From contig CP063166.1 in the NCBI GenBank assembly GCA_016806145.1, positions 5,890,001 to 5,954,000 on the forward strand: a DNA stretch of 64,000 nucleotides. The letters are read 5' to 3'. Every line of letters starts with the position of its first letter. Position 1 is the stretch's first letter. The translations under genes and the position numbers were made by a program. Positions 41,502-51,042 of the stretch are shown here, piece by piece. The notes beneath the pieces were generated by a model, which was not told the origin of the DNA, made no database searches, and saw only the letters and a program-made list of their open reading frames with translations. The stretch comes from Variovorax paradoxus. GTDB lineage: Bacteria > Pseudomonadota > Gammaproteobacteria > Burkholderiales > Burkholderiaceae_C.

Positions 41502-41526
41502 CGCCGTGCGCCAGCGGTCGCGTCAG
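41498..41526. terminator. Dyad at the convergent stops of the fusion gene and the CDF gene
   Basis: CTGACGC (41498-41504) and GCGTCAG (41520-41526) form a 7-bp stem with a 15-nt loop; each arm contains one of the two TGA stop codons. There is no T-run. Confidence 0.35.
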
Positions 41527-42491
41527 TCGTGGCAGCGCTGGATCTCGACCGTCGAGTGCCGGATCTCCTCGTGCATCGAGAAGCAGGCCCGCACCTGGTC
41601 CGCCGTGAGCGTGGCCGAATGGGTGACCACCGTCAGCGCGCAGGCATAGGCCTCGCGGCCCACGCGCCACACGTGCAGGTCGGCCACGCGCGTGAGCGAA
41701 TCGACCAGGCCGGCCTCGATGCCCTCGCGGATCTCCTCGGCCACCGGGTGGTCCATCTCGCGGTCGAGAAGCACCTTGCCGGTTTCCTTCAGCAGCCCCT
41801 TGGCCCAGACCGCGACCAGCACCGCGCCGACGATGCCCATCGCCGGGTCGAGCCAGGCCCAGCCGTAGAACCAGCCGCCCAGCAGCGCCGCGATCGCGAG
41901 CACCGAGGTCGCGGCATCGGCCACGACGTGGATGTAGGCCGAGCGCAGGTTCAGGTCGTGGCCATGCGCGCCGTGCGCGTGGTGATGGTCGTGGTCGTGG
42001 GCGTGCGCATGCCCGTGATCGTGGCCATGGTGGTGGTGCGCCCCGCCCAGCAGCCGCGCGCAGACCAGGTTGACCACCAGTCCCAGCACCGCCACCGAGA
42101 TCGCCTCGGGATAGTGGATCGCCGACGGCGACCACAGCCGCTCGAGCGAACCCACCACCATCAGCGCCGCGATGCCCAAGAGCACCAGCGCGCTCGCGAA
42201 GCCGCCGAGCACCTCGATCTTCCAGGTGCCGAAGGCGAAGCGCGGGTCGCGCGCATAGCGGCGCGCGGCCGCATAGGCGAAGGCGCTCAGGCCGATGGCC
42301 AGCGCGTGCGAGCTCATGTGCCAGCCGTCGGCCAGCAGCGCCATCGAGTTGAACCACCAGCCGGCGCCGATCTCGAGCGCCATCATCGCGGCGGTGATCC
42401 ACATCACGAGCCGCGTGCTGCGCTCGGCGCGTTCGTTGTCGCTGCCGAAGTGGTGCTCGTGCTGCCACGCGCTCAGGTCATGGGTGTGCAT
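41523..42491 (-). CDS. dmeF: CDF-family divalent metal efflux transporter (DmeF-like)
   Basis: A 322-residue inner-membrane cation diffusion facilitator. It has six hydrophobic helices, with transport-site acidic residues in LLADGWHMSSHA (helix II) and HVVADAATSVLA (helix V). A very His-rich loop (about residues 150-177) with repeated HDHGHAH lies between helices IV and V, and a cytoplasmic C-terminal domain follows. The N-terminal HTHDLSAWQHEHHF is characteristic of DmeF (cobalt/nickel export). Metal preference is inferred. It is 13 bp upstream of ruvB's stop on the same strand, but an operon link is uncertain. Confidence 0.88.
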   Translation of the reverse strand: MHTHDLSAWQHEHHFGSDNERAERSTRLVMWITAAMMALEIGAGWWFNSMALLADGWHMSSHALAIGLSAFAYAAARRYARDPRFAFGTWKIEVLGGFASALVLLGIAALMVVGSLERLWSPSAIHYPEAISVAVLGLVVNLVCARLLGGAHHHHGHDHGHAHAHDHDHHHAHGAHGHDLNLRSAYIHVVADAATSVLAIAALLGGWFYGWAWLDPAMGIVGAVLVAVWAKGLLKETGKVLLDREMDHPVAEEIREGIEAGLVDSLTRVADLHVWRVGREAYACALTVVTHSATLTADQVRACFSMHEEIRHSTVEIQRCHD

Positions 42492-43759: not shown

Positions 43760-44404
43760 GTGTCGATCTACGAACTGAAGCCGCGTTTCCAGGCCCTGCT
43801 TCGGCCGCTCGTGGTCGCACTGCATGCCCGGGGGGTCACCGCCAACCAGGTCACGCTGAGCGCCTGCGCGGTCTCGGTGGCCCTCGGCCTGTGGCTCTAC
43901 CTGGCCGCGACCTCGCTCGCGGCCTTCGCATTGATCCCGGCCTGGATGTTCCTGCGCATGGCCTTCAACGCCATCGACGGCATGCTGGCGCGCGAGCACC
44001 ACCAGCAAAGCCGGCTCGGCGCCTTCCTCAACGAACTCACCGACGTGGTCTCCGATGCCGCGCTGTACCTGCCCTTCGTGCTGGTGCAGCCCTTCAGCCC
44101 GGCCTGGGTCGGCACCGTGATCGTGCTGGCCGGCCTCAGCGAATTCGCCGGCGCGCTCGGCCCCACGGTCGGTGCCTCGCGCCGCTACGATGGGCCGCTC
44201 GGCAAGAGCGACCGCGCCTTCGTGTTCGGCGCGCTCGGCCTCTACGTGGCGCTCGGCGGCCCGCTGCCGGGCTGGACCGCGCTGCTGATGCCGCTGCTGG
44301 CGCTGCTGGTGGCCTGGACCGTGGTCAACCGCGTGCGCCGCGCGCTCGCCGAAGCCGATGCCGCGGACAGCGCCACGCCAAAAGAAACAACAGGGATTCA
44401 ATGA
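43760..44404 (+). CDS. ynbA: YnbA-like CDP-alcohol phosphatidyltransferase
   Basis: A 214-residue membrane enzyme expected to transfer a phosphatidyl group from a CDP-lipid to an alcohol. The family motif is present at residues 70-95 but altered: NAIDGMLAR-x8-G-AFL-N-ELT-D, so the first and third of the four canonical Asp residues are Asn (N70, N91) while D73 and D95 remain. Four or more hydrophobic helices follow. The sequence and gene order recall E. coli YnbA. GTG 43760 is preceded by AGAGGGG. Its stop overlaps the next start (ATGA). The alcohol substrate is unknown. Confidence 0.85.
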   Translation: MSIYELKPRFQALLRPLVVALHARGVTANQVTLSACAVSVALGLWLYLAATSLAAFALIPAWMFLRMAFNAIDGMLAREHHQQSRLGAFLNELTDVVSDAALYLPFVLVQPFSPAWVGTVIVLAGLSEFAGALGPTVGASRRYDGPLGKSDRAFVFGALGLYVALGGPLPGWTALLMPLLALLVAWTVVNRVRRALAEADAADSATPKETTGIQ

Positions 44405-46206
44405 ACGACAACACCACCGACCTCGACACCGGCGCCTCGCCGTCCTCGCTCACGCAACGGCCGCTGGCCGAGCGCCAGTTCCGCACCCACGACGGCGAAT
44501 CGCTGTTCTACCGCCACTGGCCGGCCACCGGCCCCGCGCGGCGCGGCGCCATCGTGCTGTTCCACCGCGGCCACGAGCACGGCGCGCGCATGGCGCACCT
44601 GGTCGACGAGCTCGACCTGCCCGACTTCGACGTCTTCGCCTGGGATGCACGCGGCCACGGCCGCTCGCCGGGCCAGCGCGGCTACAGCCCCAGCTTCGGC
44701 ACCTCGGTGCGCGACGTGCAGACCTTCGTGCAGCACATCGTCGGCACGCACGGCGTGGCCGAACACGACATCCACGTGATCGCGCAGAGCGTGGGCGCGG
44801 TGCTGGTCGCGACCTGGGCCCACGACTACGCGCCCAAGGTGCGCGGCCTCACGCTGGCCTCGCCGGCCTTCAAGGTCAAGCTCTACGTGCCGTTCGCGCG
44901 GCCGGGCCTGGCGCTGATGCACAAGCTGCGCGGCCTGTTCTTCGTCAACAGCTACGTCAAGGCCAAGTTCCTCACGCACGACCCCGAGCGCATCGCGAGC
45001 TACGAGAGCGATCCGCTGATCACGCGGCCGATCGCGGTCAACATCCTGCTCGGTCTGTACGAAGCGGCCGAGCGCGTGGTGACCGACGCCAACGCGATCA
45101 CCTTGCCGGTGCAGCTGTTGATCTCGGGCGCCGACTGGGTGGTGCACCACAAGCCGCAGCACCAGTTCTTCGAACGGCTGGGCAGCGCGGTCAAGACCAA
45201 GACGGTGCTGCCGGGCTTCTTCCACGACACGCTGGGCGAGAAGGACCGCGCACCCGCCGTGCAGGCCATCCGCGAATTCGTGCTGCGCCTGTTCGACGAG
45301 GCGCCCGCGCCGGTCGACCGCCGCGGCGCGCACCTCGAGGGCGAGACCGCCGAGGAATCGCGCGCGCTGGCCGCGCCGCTGCCGGCGCTGTCGCCGCGCG
45401 GCCTCTACTGGTCGCTCACGCGCGCCGGGCTGCGCTTCGGCGGCGGCCTGTCCGAGGGCGTGAAGCTGGGCCACGACACCGGCTTCGACTCGGGCAGCAC
45501 GCTCGACTACGTCTACCGCAACGTCGCGCAGGGCAAGGGCGCCATGGGCCGCGCCATCGACCGCAACTACCTCGACGCCATCGGCTGGCGCGGCATCCGG
45601 CAGCGCAAGATCCACGTCGAGGAGCTGCTGCGCATCGCGATGGAACGGCTGGCCGAGATGCACCGCGAGGTGCGGCTGATGGACATCGCGGCCGGCCATG
45701 GCCGCTACGTGCTCGACGCGGTGCTCGCGAGCCCGGTCAAGGCCAGCTCGATCCTGCTGCGCGACTACAGCGAGATCAACGTGCGCGACGGCCGTGCGCT
45801 CATCGCCGAGAAGGGCCTGGAGGACGTCGCCCAGTTCGTGCAGGCCGACGCCTTCGACCGCATGAGCCTCGCGAGCGTCACGCCGCGGCCCACGCTGGCG
45901 GTGGTGTCGGGGCTGTACGAGCTGTTCCCCGACAACGAGATGGTGCGGCGCTCGCTCGCGGGCGTGGGCGACGCGGTGGAGGACGGGGGCTACCTGGTCT
46001 ACACCGGCCAGCCCTGGCATCCGCAGCTCGAGATGATCGCGCGCGCGCTCACCAGCCACCGCCAGGGCGAGGCCTGGGTGATGCGCCGCCGCACGCAGGT
46101 CGAGATGGACCAGCTGGTGGAGGAGGCGGGCTTCCGCAAGATCGACCAGCGCAGCGACGAGTGGGGCATCTTCACCGTCTCGCTGGCCCGGCGCACCGAG
46201 CACTGA
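44401..46206 (+). CDS. ynbC: YnbC-like fusion of alpha/beta hydrolase and methyltransferase
   Basis: A 601-residue two-domain protein. The N-terminal domain (about 20-310) is a monoglyceride-lipase-like hydrolase: VLFHRGHEHG, WDARGHGRSPGQRGY, nucleophile elbow AQSVGA (Ser130), with Asp245 (ISGADWVV) and His275 (GFFHDTLGE) completing the triad. The C-terminal domain (about 360-600) is a class I SAM methyltransferase with VRLMDIAAGHGRYVLDAV near residue 425. This architecture matches E. coli YnbC. ATG 44401 overlaps the ynbA stop. Acting on a lipid made by the operon is inference. Confidence 0.87.
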   Translation: MNDNTTDLDTGASPSSLTQRPLAERQFRTHDGESLFYRHWPATGPARRGAIVLFHRGHEHGARMAHLVDELDLPDFDVFAWDARGHGRSPGQRGYSPSFGTSVRDVQTFVQHIVGTHGVAEHDIHVIAQSVGAVLVATWAHDYAPKVRGLTLASPAFKVKLYVPFARPGLALMHKLRGLFFVNSYVKAKFLTHDPERIASYESDPLITRPIAVNILLGLYEAAERVVTDANAITLPVQLLISGADWVVHHKPQHQFFERLGSAVKTKTVLPGFFHDTLGEKDRAPAVQAIREFVLRLFDEAPAPVDRRGAHLEGETAEESRALAAPLPALSPRGLYWSLTRAGLRFGGGLSEGVKLGHDTGFDSGSTLDYVYRNVAQGKGAMGRAIDRNYLDAIGWRGIRQRKIHVEELLRIAMERLAEMHREVRLMDIAAGHGRYVLDAVLASPVKASSILLRDYSEINVRDGRALIAEKGLEDVAQFVQADAFDRMSLASVTPRPTLAVVSGLYELFPDNEMVRRSLAGVGDAVEDGGYLVYTGQPWHPQLEMIARALTSHRQGEAWVMRRRTQVEMDQLVEEAGFRKIDQRSDEWGIFTVSLARRTEH

Positions 46207-46214
46207 GCGACGCC

Positions 46215-47575
46215 ATGCGCGCCTGGTTCGCGGCGAGACCCTGGAAGCGCGCCGCCGGCTGGCTGGCGGTGCTGGGGCCGCTGTTCTACCTGACCTACGG
46301 CCTCGCCAACTGGTGGGCCACCACGCGCGCGCAGGTGCCCTCGATGGCCTTCGCGTGGGAACGCCAGGTGCCGTTCTGGCCCTGGACCATCTTTCCCTAC
46401 TGGACCATCAACGTCTTCTACGCGCTGTCGCCGTTCCTCGCGCGCGACCGCCACACGCTCGACCGCCACGGCGCGCGGCTGCTCAGCGCCACGCTGATCG
46501 CCTGCTCCTGCTTCGTGATCTGGCCGCTGCACTTCAGCTTCGGCCAGCCCGCGGTCGAGGGCGCGCCGGCCTTCCTGTTCGCGGCGCTGCGCGGCTTCGA
46601 CCAGCCCTACAACCAGGCGCCCTCGCTGCACATCGCGCTGGCGGTGATCCTGTGGGACTGGTATCGGCAGTTCATCCGGCCGCTGTGGGCGCGCTTCGTG
46701 CTGCACCTGTGGGCCTTCGCGATCTGCGCGTCGGTGCTGACCACCTGGCAGCACCATTTCATCGACATCCCGACCGGCGCGCTGCTGGGCCTGGTCTGCA
46801 TCTGGCTGTGGCCGCTGCGGCGCACGGTCTCGATGCCGCGCGCCTGGCGGCTCGCGCGCGATCCGCAACGCTGGAAGCTCGCGGCCTGCTATGCGCTGGG
46901 CGCGCTGGCCTGCCTCGGGCTCGCGCTGTGGGGCGGCGGCTGGGCGCTGTGGCTGGCCTGGCCCGCGGCCTCGCTGTCGCTGGTGGCGCTCAACTACGCG
47001 GGCTTCGGCGCGCGCGGCTTCCAGATGGACGGCCAGGGCCGCATGGGCTGGGCCGCGCGCTGGCTGTTCGCGCCCTACCGGCTCGGCGCGGCGCTCAACG
47101 CACGGCTGTGGACGCGCGGACTGCCGCCCGCGGCCGAGGTGGTGCCCGGGCTCTGGCTCGGCCGCCTGCCCACGCCGGCCGAATGGCAGGCCGCGGGCCG
47201 GCCGCGGCTGGTGAGCCTCTGCGCCGAGCTGCAGGTGCCGGGCGGCACCACGGGCGCGCGCTGCGTGCCGCTGCTCGACCTCGTGGTGCCGCCCCGCAGC
47301 GGCTGCGGCGCGCGGCCGCAGCGATCGAGGGCCAGCGTCGCGCCGCGCGCGGCCCGGTCTGGGTCTGCTGCGCGCTCGGCTTCTCGCGCAGCGCGGCCGC
47401 GACCATCGCCTGGCTCGGCACGCACGGCGTGGCCAGTGCCGCCGACGGGCTGGCGACGGCCGAGGCCGCGGTGCGCCGCGCACGGCCGCAGATCGTGCTG
47501 CGGCCGGCCTGGTTCGCCGCGCTCGCGCCGCTCGGCGCCCCCAGCTTCACCTCCGGAGCAGCGCCCCATGAATGA
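46215..47575 (+). CDS. ynbD: YnbD-like PAP2 + dual-specificity phosphatase, apparent one-base frameshift
   Basis: A membrane phosphatase with two parts. The first ~270 residues form a PAP2-like domain with PSLH (136-139) and QHHFIDIPTG (His180/181, Asp184), plus several hydrophobic helices. The second is a small dual-specificity phosphatase domain whose Cx5R loop (CALGFSRS, Cys codon 47369-47371) lies in a different reading frame. The frames join if one base is missing near the C4 run at 47292-47295. Without it, the first frame reads on through the next gene to 48008. This is either a true mutation or a sequencing error. It overlaps the downstream ATG by 8 nt and starts 8 nt after ynbC. Confidence 0.75.
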
Positions 47576-48008
47576 CACCGACCGCGCCACCTGCGCCGCG
47601 CTCGCCGGCCTGCTGCGCGCGGCCGGCGTGCTGGCCCTCTGGGGTTTCGCGCTCAGCGCGATCGCGGCGCTCGTGCTCGCGCTCACCTTGCGCTCGCTGC
47701 CCACCACGCCGAGCATGGCCTTCGGCGCCGTCGCCATCCTCGGCGTGCTCGAGCGCTATTTCGCGTTCCGGCTGCGGCTCGACCAGGCGCTGTTCGAAGA
47801 CCTCGCGCGCGGCGCCATCGCCTCGCTCGAAGCGCTCGACCAGGCGCTGGCCCGGCTCGGCCTGCGCGCCAGCGATGCTTCTTCCGCCGCGCGGCCGCTG
47901 GCCGACCGCACCCAGGGCACCCGCCAGCTGCTGCAGCGCCACGCCATCGTGGTCGCCTGCCAGAGCGCGATGTTCCTGCTCGCCCTCATGACACAGGACC
48001 TCACTTGA
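47568..48008 (+). CDS. Small membrane protein of the ynb-like operon
   Basis: A 146-residue protein of unknown family, with two or three hydrophobic helices (about 15-40, 48-65 and 125-140) and a helical, charged middle (LDQALFEDLARGAIASLEALDQAL). GGAG lies 11 nt before ATG 47568. It overlaps both neighbours (ynbD by 8 nt, the acyltransferase start by TTGA), so it is firmly part of the operon. E. coli ynbABCD has no counterpart that I recall. Confidence 0.8.
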   Translation: MNDTDRATCAALAGLLRAAGVLALWGFALSAIAALVLALTLRSLPTTPSMAFGAVAILGVLERYFAFRLRLDQALFEDLARGAIASLEALDQALARLGLRASDASSAARPLADRTQGTRQLLQRHAIVVACQSAMFLLALMTQDLT

Positions 48009-48730
48009 ACGACGCCGCTCCTCCCCCAGAAGAAAAACAACCCGACAGCGGCATCGTGCGCCGCGCGCTCGCCGTGGTCGCGGGCAAGCTGATCATCGGC
48101 GCCGCGGGCCTTTTGACCGGCGTGCGCGCCATCTGGTCGGGCACCAGCCCCAAGGCCGAGCAGACGCTCTACTTCGCCAACCACACCAGCCATGGCGACT
48201 TCGTGCTGCTGTGGGCCACGCTGCCGCCCGATCTGCGCGCGCTCACGCGGCCGGTGGCGGGGCTGGACTACTGGATGGCCTCGAAGCTGCGCCAGTTCAT
48301 CGGCGCCGACGTGTTCAACGCGCTGATGATCCGGCGCGACGGCTCGGGCCAGGGCGACAACCCGGTCGAGCAGATGAAGGCCGCGCTCGAGGCCGGCGAC
48401 TCGCTGATCATGTTCCCCGAGGGCACGCGCAACACCGGCGACGAGATCCTGCTGCCGCTCAAGAGCGGGCTGTTCCACCTCGCGCGCGCCTGCCCCAACG
48501 TGCGGCTGGTGCCGGTGTGGATCGAGAACCTCAAGCGCGTGCTGCCCAAGGGCACGCTGGTGCCGATCCCGCTGGCCTGCACGGTGCGCTTCGGCACGCC
48601 GATCGTGCTGGCCGAGGGCGAGGACAAGCTGAGCTTCCTGGCGCGTGCGCGCAGCGCCATGCTCGATCTGCGGCCCGAGTACGACCGCCTCGACGAGAAG
48701 CCCAAGCCGGCCTCCGGGAGCGCCGCATGA
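48005..48730 (+). CDS. 1-acyl-sn-glycerol-3-phosphate acyltransferase-like protein (PlsC family)
   Basis: A 241-residue acyltransferase. Block I is ANHTSHGD (NHx4D, about residues 59-65) and block III FPEGTRNTGDE (about 140-150); one hydrophobic segment near the N-terminus would anchor it to the membrane. The expected role is acylation of lysophosphatidate or a related lysolipid. The start is TTG at 48005, overlapping the previous stop (TTGA); the gene ends in an ATGA overlap with the cdsA-like gene. In this operon it would supply phosphatidate for the CDP-lipid synthase (inference). Confidence 0.9.
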   Translation: MNDAAPPPEEKQPDSGIVRRALAVVAGKLIIGAAGLLTGVRAIWSGTSPKAEQTLYFANHTSHGDFVLLWATLPPDLRALTRPVAGLDYWMASKLRQFIGADVFNALMIRRDGSGQGDNPVEQMKAALEAGDSLIMFPEGTRNTGDEILLPLKSGLFHLARACPNVRLVPVWIENLKRVLPKGTLVPIPLACTVRFGTPIVLAEGEDKLSFLARARSAMLDLRPEYDRLDEKPKPASGSAA

Positions 48731-49683
48731 TCGAACTCTCGCCCTTCGCGCAGACCACGCTGCAGCTGTTCGGCGGCGTGCTCGGCGTGCTGCTGCTGGC
48801 CTCGGGCATCGGCGCCGTGCTCAAGTGGCGGGTGGCGCACGGCCAGCCGCATTCGGTGATCGACAACCTCAACGCGCGCGTCAATGCCTGGTGGGTGATG
48901 GTGGCGGCGATCGGCCTGGCCTTCGCGTTCGGCAAGGGCGGGGTGATCGTGCTGTTCTACCTGATCTCGTTCTACGCGCTGCGCGAGTTCATCAGCCTGG
49001 CCTACACCCGGCGCGGCGACCACCACGCGATCGCGGCCGCCTTCTACATCGGCCTGCCGGTGCAGTACTTCCTGGTCTGGATCGACTGGTACGGCCTCTA
49101 TTCGATCTTCATCCCGGTCTATGCCTTCCTGGTGCTGCCGATCCTCGCGGCCGTGGGCGGCGACACGCAGCGCTTCCTCGAGCGCACCTCGAAGATCCAG
49201 TGGGGCCTGATGATCTGCGTGTTCTGCATCAGCCACGTGCCGGCGCTGCTCACCCTGCAGATCCCGGGCTTCGAGGGCCGCAACCTGCTGCTGATCGCCT
49301 TCCTCGTGATCGTGGTGCAGGGCAGCGACGTGCTGCAGTACATCTGGGGCAAGCTGTTCGGCAAGCGCAAGGTGGCGCCCGAGCTCTCGCCCTCGAAGAC
49401 CTGGGAGGGCCTGATCGGCGGCATCGCGAGCGCCACCGCGCTCGGCGCCGCGCTGTCGTGGGCCACGCCCTTCAATGCGTGGCAGGCCGCGCTGATGTCG
49501 CTGACCATCTGCCTGATGGGCTTCTTCGGCGGCCTCGTGATGTCGGCCATCAAGCGCGACCGCGGCGTGAAGGACTGGGGCTCGATGATCGAGGGCCATG
49601 GCGGCATGCTCGACCGGCTCGACTCGGTGATCTTCGCGGCGCCGATCTTCTTCCACGCGCTGCGCTACTGGTGGGTGCCGTGA
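48727..49683 (+). CDS. ynbB: YnbB-like phosphatidate cytidylyltransferase (CdsA family)
   Basis: A 318-residue membrane enzyme with seven or eight hydrophobic helices. The C-terminal CdsA signature is complete: SAIKRDRGVKD then GHGGMLDRLDSV, preceded by ELSPSKTWEGLIGG. It should make CDP-diacylglycerol from phosphatidate and CTP, the donor for the YnbA-like enzyme. ATG 48727 overlaps the acyltransferase stop (ATGA); its own stop overlaps the YdeI start (GTGA). A housekeeping cdsA is presumably elsewhere, since this copy sits with ynb genes rather than dxr/frr. Confidence 0.9.
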   Translation: MIELSPFAQTTLQLFGGVLGVLLLASGIGAVLKWRVAHGQPHSVIDNLNARVNAWWVMVAAIGLAFAFGKGGVIVLFYLISFYALREFISLAYTRRGDHHAIAAAFYIGLPVQYFLVWIDWYGLYSIFIPVYAFLVLPILAAVGGDTQRFLERTSKIQWGLMICVFCISHVPALLTLQIPGFEGRNLLLIAFLVIVVQGSDVLQYIWGKLFGKRKVAPELSPSKTWEGLIGGIASATALGAALSWATPFNAWQAALMSLTICLMGFFGGLVMSAIKRDRGVKDWGSMIEGHGGMLDRLDSVIFAAPIFFHALRYWWVP

Positions 49684-50306
49684 CGGCGGCGAAGAAAGCG
49701 CCGGCGAAGAAGGCGACCGCCGCGGCCGAACGCATCGTCGACGACACGCCCATCGAATGCGCCGACGACGCCGCGCTCGCGCGCTGGTACGAGCGCCACC
49801 ACGCGAGCCATGCCGGCGTCTGGCTGCGGCTCGCGAAGAAGGCCAGCGGCATCGCCTCGGTCGACACCGCGCAGGCGCTCGATCTCGCGCTGTGCCACGG
49901 CTGGATCGACGGCCAGCGCAAGAGCGAGAGCGACACGCATTTCCTGCAGCGCTACACGCCGCGCACCAAGCGCAGCACCTGGTCGCAGATCAACCGCGCC
50001 AAGGCACTGCAGCTGATCGAGGAAGGCCGCATGCAGCCAGGCGGCCTGGCCGAGGTCGAACGCGCCAGGGCCGACGGTCGCTGGGCCGCGGCCTACGAGG
50101 CCTCGCGCGTGGCGACCGTGCCGCCCGACCTGCGGGCCGCGCTCGACGCCAACAGGAAGGCCGCGACCTTCTTCGCCGCGCTCGATGCGCGCAACCGCTT
50201 CGCGGTGCTGTTCCGCACCCAGAGCGCGAAGAAGCCCGAGACGCGCGCGCGGCGCATCGCGCAGTTCGTCGAGATGCTCGCCAAGGGCGAGAAGATCCAC
50301 CCCTGA
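49680..50306 (+). CDS. YdeI/OmpD-associated family protein
   Basis: A 208-residue soluble protein with a Lys/Ala-rich N-terminus. It carries the YdeI-family core: WYERHHASHAGVWLRLAKK, DLALCHGWIDGQRK, FLQRYTPRTKRSTWSQINRAKA and the C-terminal Lys/Arg-rich SAKKPETRARRIAQFVEMLAKGEK. Relatives have been linked to resistance to envelope-active agents, but the molecular role is unknown. GTG 49680 overlaps the ynbB-like stop, so it is translationally coupled to the lipid operon. It is convergent with the Crp/Fnr gene (1 nt between). Confidence 0.88.
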   Translation: MTAAKKAPAKKATAAAERIVDDTPIECADDAALARWYERHHASHAGVWLRLAKKASGIASVDTAQALDLALCHGWIDGQRKSESDTHFLQRYTPRTKRSTWSQINRAKALQLIEEGRMQPGGLAEVERARADGRWAAAYEASRVATVPPDLRAALDANRKAATFFAALDARNRFAVLFRTQSAKKPETRARRIAQFVEMLAKGEKIHP

Positions 50307-50307
50307 T

Positions 50308-51042
50308 TCAGGTGCCGGCCGCGATGCGCGCGAGCCGTTCGGCATCGACGATGCGGATGCGCTTGTAGCGCATGTCGATCGCGCCCTCCTCCACCAGCCG
50401 CCCCAGCTCCTTGTTGACGGTCTGGCGCGACAGCCCGAGCATGGCCGCGAGGTCGGTCTGCGACAGCCGCACCAGCGGCGGCGCGCCGTCCTCGCCCTGG
50501 CCGTTGTAGAAGTGCACCAGGTTCATCAGCGCGGCAGCCACGCGGCCGTGGATCGAGTTGAGCATCTGGTTCTGCAGCAGCACGATGCTCAGCCGCTGGC
50601 GCTGCAGGCCCAGCTTGGCCACGTCGCGCCACAGCAGCGGCTCGGCATCGAGCACGGCCAGCACCGCGTCGCTCGGCAGGTGCACGATCACCGAGTCCTC
50701 GTGCGCGTGGTAGTCGTAGGCCAGCGGCACCTCCTCGAGCAGGCGCACCAGCGGCGCCACCTGTCCCGGGCCGAGCAGCGCGTTCACGTACTTGCGGCCG
50801 TTCGGGCTCATGCTGCTGATCTCGAGGCAGCCCGACACCACCACCAGCAGCTCGCGCCGATGGCGATCGTGCGCCAGCACCTGCGTGCGGCGGCCGTAGC
50901 GCTCGAGCCGCGCCGACTTCATGAGCTCGGCGCGGCGCGCATCGGGCCAGCGCGAGAACAGCTCGTTCCAGCGCAGCGCGCGCTCGAGCAGCGCGGCGTT
51001 CTCCTCGGCCTCTCGTTCGGTGGTCTTGCGCGGTCGGGTCAG
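50308..51042 (-). CDS. Crp/Fnr-family transcriptional regulator, probable CTG start
   Basis: A cAMP-receptor-like regulator: cyclic-nucleotide-binding-fold domain followed by a C-terminal helix-turn-helix (RLSQTDLAAMLGLSRQTVNKELGRLVEEG). The first ATG (50922) gives 204 residues, lacks a ribosome-binding site and removes a conserved N-terminal helix. The frame upstream encodes RWNELFSRWPDARRAELMKS, which looks exactly like that helix. CTG at 51042 has AGGGAG 6 nt upstream and gives 244 residues; no ATG, GTG or TTG lies in between. It has no N-terminal FNR cysteines. It is divergent from the porin operon, across a TGTCA-N6-TGACA dyad that it probably binds. Confidence 0.82.
   Translation of the reverse strand: MTRPRKTTEREAEENAALLERALRWNELFSRWPDARRAELMKSARLERYGRRTQVLAHDRHRRELLVVVSGCLEISSMSPNGRKYVNALLGPGQVAPLVRLLEEVPLAYDYHAHEDSVIVHLPSDAVLAVLDAEPLLWRDVAKLGLQRQRLSIVLLQNQMLNSIHGRVAAALMNLVHFYNGQGEDGAPPLVRLSQTDLAAMLGLSRQTVNKELGRLVEEGAIDMRYKRIRIVDAERLARIAAGT

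Follow-up and report, generated by a model that had tools for sequence, protein, structure and literature searches.

The stretch of Variovorax paradoxus DNA analysed here (the window; 64,000 nucleotides of contig CP063166.1, positions 5,890,001 to 5,954,000 of the forward strand) carries an operon related to ynbABCD of Escherichia coli, which has been confirmed at 43760-50306 on the plus strand through reading frames and Pfam matches. The genome is Variovorax-like and 9.44 Mb in size; the nearest homologue of its YnbC is 99% identical, and the best named matches are from Variovorax. The genes are consecutive, all on the plus strand, in the order A-C-D-S-P-B-Y (Table 1), with homologues of ynbA, ynbB, ynbC and ynbD co-located as in the ynb operon family. 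Exact four-base overlaps between stop and start codons have been detected at four of the six junctions (ATGA at A/C and P/B, TTGA at S/P and GTGA at B/Y), while D and S overlap by 8 bases and C is followed by an 8-base gap before the ATG of D. The initial annotation of this DNA, made from its letters alone, had described seven overlapping genes; the consecutive arrangement on one strand stands, and the C/D gap shows that overlap is not universal. Its family assignments were borne out by Pfam for A, C, P, B and Y, while the PAP2 and dual-specificity phosphatase (DSP) pieces of D fall below the Pfam cut-offs and S is without a Pfam match.

Table 1. Genes of the ynb-type operon in the window, in order of position
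Gene	Product	Position	Strand	Basis
A	YnbA-like CDP-alcohol phosphotransferase	43760-44404	+	Pfam PF01066 CDP-OH_P_transf, 7e-10
C	YnbC-like hydrolase-methyltransferase fusion	44401-46206	+	Pfam Hydrolase_4 6e-71, Methyltransf_20 6e-151
D, PAP2 half	YnbD PAP2 half	46215 to ~47300 (end approximate)	+	reading frames
D, DSP half	YnbD dual-specificity phosphatase half, other frame	~47285-47575 (start approximate)	+	
S	small membrane-type protein	47568-48008	+	no Pfam family
P	PlsC-type acyltransferase	48005-48730	+	Pfam Acyltransferase 2e-17
B	YnbB-type CDP-diacylglycerol synthase-like	48727-49683	+	Pfam CTP_transf_1 4e-71
Y	OmdA/YdeI family	49680-50306	+	Pfam 5e-22

In E. coli K-12, ynbA, ynbB, ynbC and ynbD (b1408-b1411) adjoin each other, and their products share 47% (YnbA), 39% (YnbB) and 58% (YnbC) identity with the window proteins, YnbD matching in two parts at 39% and 43%. 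The earlier proposal that the core corresponds to ynbABCD is therefore supported gene by gene. Both loci have the hydrolase-methyltransferase and PAP2-phosphatase fusions, which are not new since E. coli ynbC and ynbD already carry them, and both have the same Asn changes in YnbA. The two differ in that the E. coli order is A-B-C-D, without P, S or Y; a search for P and S homologues in the E. coli ynb locus gave no match. No functional study of the whole ynb operon was among the papers listed in searches of the open-licence literature, and the accessible text of PMC12419801 does not mention it. Individual genes appear in several reports, as far as their accessible parts go. YnbD did not complement the loss of undecaprenyl-pyrophosphate or phosphatidylglycerol phosphate (PGP) phosphatases and is said to be without assigned function (PMC7413402); ynbC disruption made an intron protein localise more diffusely, an effect that the study ties to polyphosphate, with possible polar effects noted by the authors (PMC2435150); ynbA insertions appear in a table row as enriched when c-di-GMP is low (PMC13031359); and an activation of ynbA by BglJ-RcsB is reported from earlier work in PMC12871917.

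Operon order was surveyed by scanning genomes, one for each species, which gave at least 590 pattern matches, 554 of these encoding a YnbC relative; the named hosts include Variovorax, Hydrogenophaga, Rhodocyclales, many Pseudomonas and Reyranella. Order counts rest on the best 80 of at least 554 YnbC-relative loci, typed with family profiles, and close relatives are over-represented among these because the best matches were selected. A, C and D are present in all 80, and 74 keep the order A-C-D-S-P-B; counted among these are L075, where C is split into two pieces, one locus in which B has an additional weak match, and four in which P has such a match upstream. The exceptions comprise four loci where the contig ends at or within D (L061, L073, L081 and L132), one without P (L090) and one from an Acidobacteria metagenome-assembled genome with P-B-A-C-D-S (L094). 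Given that the order recurs to this extent, the operon is not a chance arrangement, and the genes A, C, D, S, P and B belong together. This six-gene set is the common form among the loci examined and the E. coli operon is shorter, whereas the initial annotation had seen an extended ynbABCD. Y cannot be kept as a member of the pathway: a YdeI/OmdA match occurs in 8 of the 80 loci, all named Variovorax, and YdeI is a hitchhiker outside the conserved gene set. In one genome, a 717-residue WG-repeat protein is encoded between YnbC and YnbD (L221:7208-9361).

A nested distribution was observed in a phylum sample of 398 genomes, this genome included, with YnbA counted at E <= 1e-20, S at E <= 1e-5, YnbC by PF12147 and YnbD over nearly its whole length. 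YnbA was found in 38 genomes, YnbC in 27, YnbD in 26 (including the window's broken copy) and S in 26. All 27 genomes with YnbC also have YnbA, and all except G353 have YnbD, so the homologues are not scattered; a scattered distribution had been named beforehand as the outcome that would speak against the operon as a pathway. The genomes with S are exactly those with YnbD, and in 26 of 26 S follows YnbD on the same strand, at a distance of up to about 120 bases (position lists compared by eye), including G262, where the two stand together some 40 kb from the other operon genes. All 11 loci with YnbA and without YnbC were examined. Eight (L207-L214) have A and B without C, D or S, and seven of these also have P; L217 has a B-like gene directly preceded by a remote A-like match (7.6e-21), and no B or P is present in the stretches around the degenerate YnbA of L215 and the YnbA of L216, which a stop interrupts. 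Judging by the A+B(+P) clusters without C, D and S, the core would consist of A, B and P, and C, D and S would form a linked addition to it. Partial YnbD matches occur in 17 further genomes, four of which were checked: L205 is a DSP-kinase fusion, L218 and L219 encode lone PAP2 proteins, and L220 is similar, on a profile match only.

Several of these loci have features of their own. The A+B pair at L209:1045-8506, without C, D, P or S, adjoins genes reading by eye as azoR and hrpA, which are the E. coli ynb neighbours, and looks like an enterobacterial locus after loss of C and D. A membrane protein at L212:858-1397, with a weak VTT/DedA-like match below cut-off, adjoins a minimal A-B-P cluster, and a protein resembling it, without a Pfam match, is found at L211:10036-10719. 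The lone PAP2 proteins at L219:2227-2832 and L220:7685-8290 resemble the N-terminal half of YnbD, and their genes adjoin others that look by eye Rieske-type and desaturase-like.

The window YnbA belongs to the CDP-alcohol phosphotransferase family (PF01066, 39.9 bits against a cut-off of 22). In the accessible text of one report, the superfamily motif D1xxD2G..AR..G..D3..D4 is described as absolutely conserved, with the four Asp of the tuberculosis enzyme binding two metals (PMC6506517). This four-Asp motif is not present in the window YnbA, which has Asn at Asp1 (codon 43967-43969) and at Asp3 (codon 44030-44032). The same two Asn were detected in 132 of 134 YnbA sequences taken from the loci (E. 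coli among them, and some genomes represented twice), the remaining two being the disrupted copies of L017 and L061. In further, partly overlapping sets the pair is present in every one of 30 loci and in 118 of 120 proteins from databases; of the two exceptions, one has Thr at D3 and the other does not match the pattern. This genome also encodes three paralogues of YnbA with the canonical Asp at D1 and D3, and no described Asn-type CDP-alcohol transferase was among the open-licence papers listed in searches for one. With Asp1 and Asp3 replaced, transferase activity may be lost. Residues that are invariant in 37 diverse sequences (L059 numbering) include Asp2 and Asp4, the G and AR of the motif, Arg152 and Arg191, as well as Arg66 and Glu92, which are near the motif in sequence. 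YnbA probably remains functional through a remodelled metal site.

Phosphatidylinositol phosphate (PIP) synthase (PgsA1/PIPS; PDB 6h53, 5d91), a member of the same superfamily, aligns with YnbA at Asp2 and Asp4 and, less clearly, at an arginine pair, its Arg155/Arg195 being the putative equivalents of Arg152/Arg191. The counterpart of Arg155 is aligned in one alignment and displaced by one residue in the other, and that of Arg195 is aligned in one, the other alignment stopping before it. According to the accessible parts of two reports, Arg155 and Arg195 are thought to bind the phosphate of the acceptor (PMC4634129, PMC6506517). YnbA differs from PIP synthase in its Asn residues, in scoring below the curated cut-off and in having no basic counterpart of the inositol-pocket residues R94, K135 and R137. 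From the putative match of the arginine pair and the unmatched neighbouring basic residues, the acceptor of YnbA is probably phosphorylated and probably not inositol phosphate.

The ynbD gene of the window is split, its PAP2 and DSP halves being in different frames, with the change of frame near 47300, where the sequence is rich in G/C, and so the two domains do not form one gene here as first annotated. Uninterrupted ynbD occurs in relatives, whose loci provided 124 complete copies, each 400 residues or longer (some genomes counted twice), and the window copy lacks the intact PAP2-DSP fusion of the ynb family. No second copy of either half was found in this genome, apart from a weak PAP2-like match (5e-10). 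The frame break may be an assembly error or a real defect. Among the other loci, ynbC of L007 and L075 and ynbA of L017 and L061 were matched in two pieces, possibly also through assembly errors.

Scores below the Pfam cut-offs were obtained for both domains in the intact relative L059 as well as in the window, and E. coli YnbD passes that of DSPc only. PAP2 phosphatases have basic residues in motifs C1 (KX6RP) and C3 (SRX5HX3D). YnbD resembles PgpB and the phospholipid phosphatases in keeping PSLH and HHxxD, with the catalytic His and Asp, and differs from them in having Val in place of the C3 arginine and, in alignments, none of the conserved basic residues of C1 and C3 at the phosphate-binding positions; of 50 YnbD, 42 are matched by the PAP2 model and 41 by PAP2_3, so that neither is clearly preferred. 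The DSP half has the features of its family, with the CX5R loop in 123 of 124 YnbD and with C387, R393 and the general acid D355 invariant in 50. The loop Cys is preceded by another Cys, in place of the His retained in E. coli, in at least 115 of the 124. The membrane linker and DSP domain are also found in a fusion of the PRK12361 type (L205:565-2226, one protein checked), which has a diacylglycerol-kinase domain and no PAP2; by analogy, this fusion suggests a lipid phosphate as the YnbD substrate. The S protein, a constant neighbour of YnbD in the genomes sampled, has only chance-level Pfam matches. Its homologues (842 significant among 7996 candidates scored) are labelled hypothetical, uncharacterised or transmembrane protein, and no Pfam domain was present among the 120 listed of the 842.

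The catalytic patterns of the remaining proteins are largely kept. The YnbC hydrolase is nearest to monoacylglycerol lipases (PDB profile, 3e-23), as a monoglyceride-lipase/lysophospholipase-like alpha/beta hydrolase, and 129 of 136 sequences have its Ser, Asp and His patterns together with that of the S-adenosylmethionine loop. P has NHxxxxD and FPEGTR, kept in 77 of 77 homologues, and the YnbB motifs, which include the C-terminal signature, are kept in 74 of 79. The window B shares PF01148 and this signature with CdsA, and is nonetheless of the YnbB type: its identity to E. coli CdsA is 45% over only 125 residues, it scores 100.5 bits against a model cut-off of 385, and in a 20-row tree with midpoint root the YnbB homologues form a clade apart (support 100/100) from one paralogue, which is a long branch, and E. 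coli CdsA. A second pair of PlsC-like and YnbB-like genes, without a CDP-alcohol transferase, was detected in this genome (L228:8513-10177, contig near 1.205 Mb), and in BLAST comparisons the window B gave 234 bits against this YnbB-like paralogue and 184 bits against E. coli YnbB. The second pair adjoins a gene reading by eye as ruvC, while ruvB is upstream of the main operon, in divergent orientation.

At its other end the operon is met by a converging gene for a Crp/Fnr-type protein (50308-50922, minus strand), which is a possible regulator; promoter and terminator scans gave no signal above chance level. The minus strand at 41523-42491 of the window encodes a cation efflux protein (PF01545) whose loop is long and rich in His.

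The operon is a full-length relative of a known, functionally unexplained E. coli operon, for which a lipid pathway is a reasonable reading. From gene content, linkage, nested distribution and the catalytic residues kept and lost, we infer a module for the production and remodelling of an inner-membrane phospholipid, with a probability of roughly 0.45, and likewise infer its activities, the order of its steps and the kind of alcohol involved. In the core, P would acylate lysophosphatidate, B would convert phosphatidate to CDP-diacylglycerol, and A would move the phosphatidyl group onto a small phosphorylated alcohol (X-P), giving phosphatidyl-X-P. In the add-on, the DSP domain of YnbD, with S as membrane partner, would remove the phosphate, the non-standard PAP2 domain may serve as a second phosphatase or a head-group transferase, and YnbC would then deacylate and/or methylate the lipid or its lyso form. 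A more specific version is less probable, in which an undescribed phospholipid would be made from a phosphorylated alcohol by YnbA with a rebuilt two-metal site (Asn at Asp1/Asp3) and its product trimmed by a YnbD-S complex.

A number of observations weigh against such a module. Asp1 and Asp3 are replaced almost throughout YnbA, the Arg155 match is displaced in one of two alignments, the PAP2 domain has lost its usual basic residues, and the ynbD of the window is itself broken. The initial annotation had seen every step expected for a CDP-activated phospholipid; the families are indeed present, but the claim is weakened as it assumes a normal CDP-alcohol transferase, whereas YnbA is without two of the four metal-ligand Asp and the PAP2 domain is altered. 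P and B are not tied to A alone, considering the second P-B pair without A and the closeness of the window B to that paralogue, and overproduced YnbB did not replace CdsA in E. coli, a result mentioned as data not shown in the accessible text of PMC6362211. The distribution is also patchy, with PF12147 unmatched in 11 of 37 genomes of the same genus (several assemblies being incomplete) and in 10 of 10 that belong to its family but to another genus.

The near-invariant loss of Asp1 and Asp3 would also suit a YnbA that is a catalytically dead scaffold, in an operon that remodels or breaks down existing phospholipids without a new head group. A hydrolase, a phosphatase and an acyltransferase would fit a deacylation-reacylation cycle, and a P-B-like pair does exist without any A. 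However, a dead scaffold would not need Asp2, Asp4, the G/AR positions and both arginines, which are nevertheless invariant in the 37 sequences, and A is the one gene found in every locus with C; this explanation is regarded as rather doubtful.

A phosphatidylinositol route is unlikely. In it, YnbA would make phosphatidylinositol phosphate from inositol phosphate, with the DSP domain of YnbD removing the phosphate. The nearest curated or solved relatives of YnbA are archaetidylinositol-phosphate and PIP synthases, whose phosphate-binding arginines have putative counterparts in YnbA, but the curated models score 72.9 against a cut-off of 180 and 51.3 against 170. Furthermore, inositol-1-phosphate synthase is unmatched in 23 of the 29 YnbC-positive genomes in a set of 61, this genome included, with six having a match. 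Plain phosphatidylinositol as a general product is disfavoured by these scores, by the missing synthase and by the missing pocket residues.

It is improbable that the operon serves a glycolipid of the MPIase/enterobacterial common antigen (ECA) type, a role reported for E. coli YnbB, which the title of a paper reportedly calls dedicated to MPIase. This would leave A, C and D unexplained, and PF07429, a sugar-transferase family of ECA/MPIase that we take to be the WecF family, was matched in none of the 61 genomes, 29 of them with YnbC, while the E. coli positive control does match, making a general role in MPIase unlikely. In the accessible text of PMC6362211, YnbB overproduction raised MPIase, whereas ynbB deletion had no significant effect on it, and MPIase as a general function has been rejected on this result and the absence of PF07429. 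Weakest and very improbable is a backup for phosphatidylglycerol synthesis with YnbD as a PTPMT1-like PGP phosphatase, the enzyme with which the phosphatase was first compared for this DNA: the domain has the DSP fold and PTPMT1 is among its profile matches (3.8e-9), but other DSPs score better, the genome has the three further canonical CDP-alcohol transferases, and the failure of ynbD to complement PGP-phosphatase-deficient E. coli, as given in the accessible text of PMC7413402, makes the literal route unlikely in that organism and led to the rejection of this role as a general function.

For the ynb family as a whole, the phospholipid module favoured here concerns an operon to which no product has been assigned in the literature found, despite its presence in the best-studied bacterium. 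The survey separates a core of A, B and P from the add-ons C, D and S, and ties a small unnamed protein, S, to YnbD, in a family whose YnbA violates a motif that has been described as absolutely conserved.

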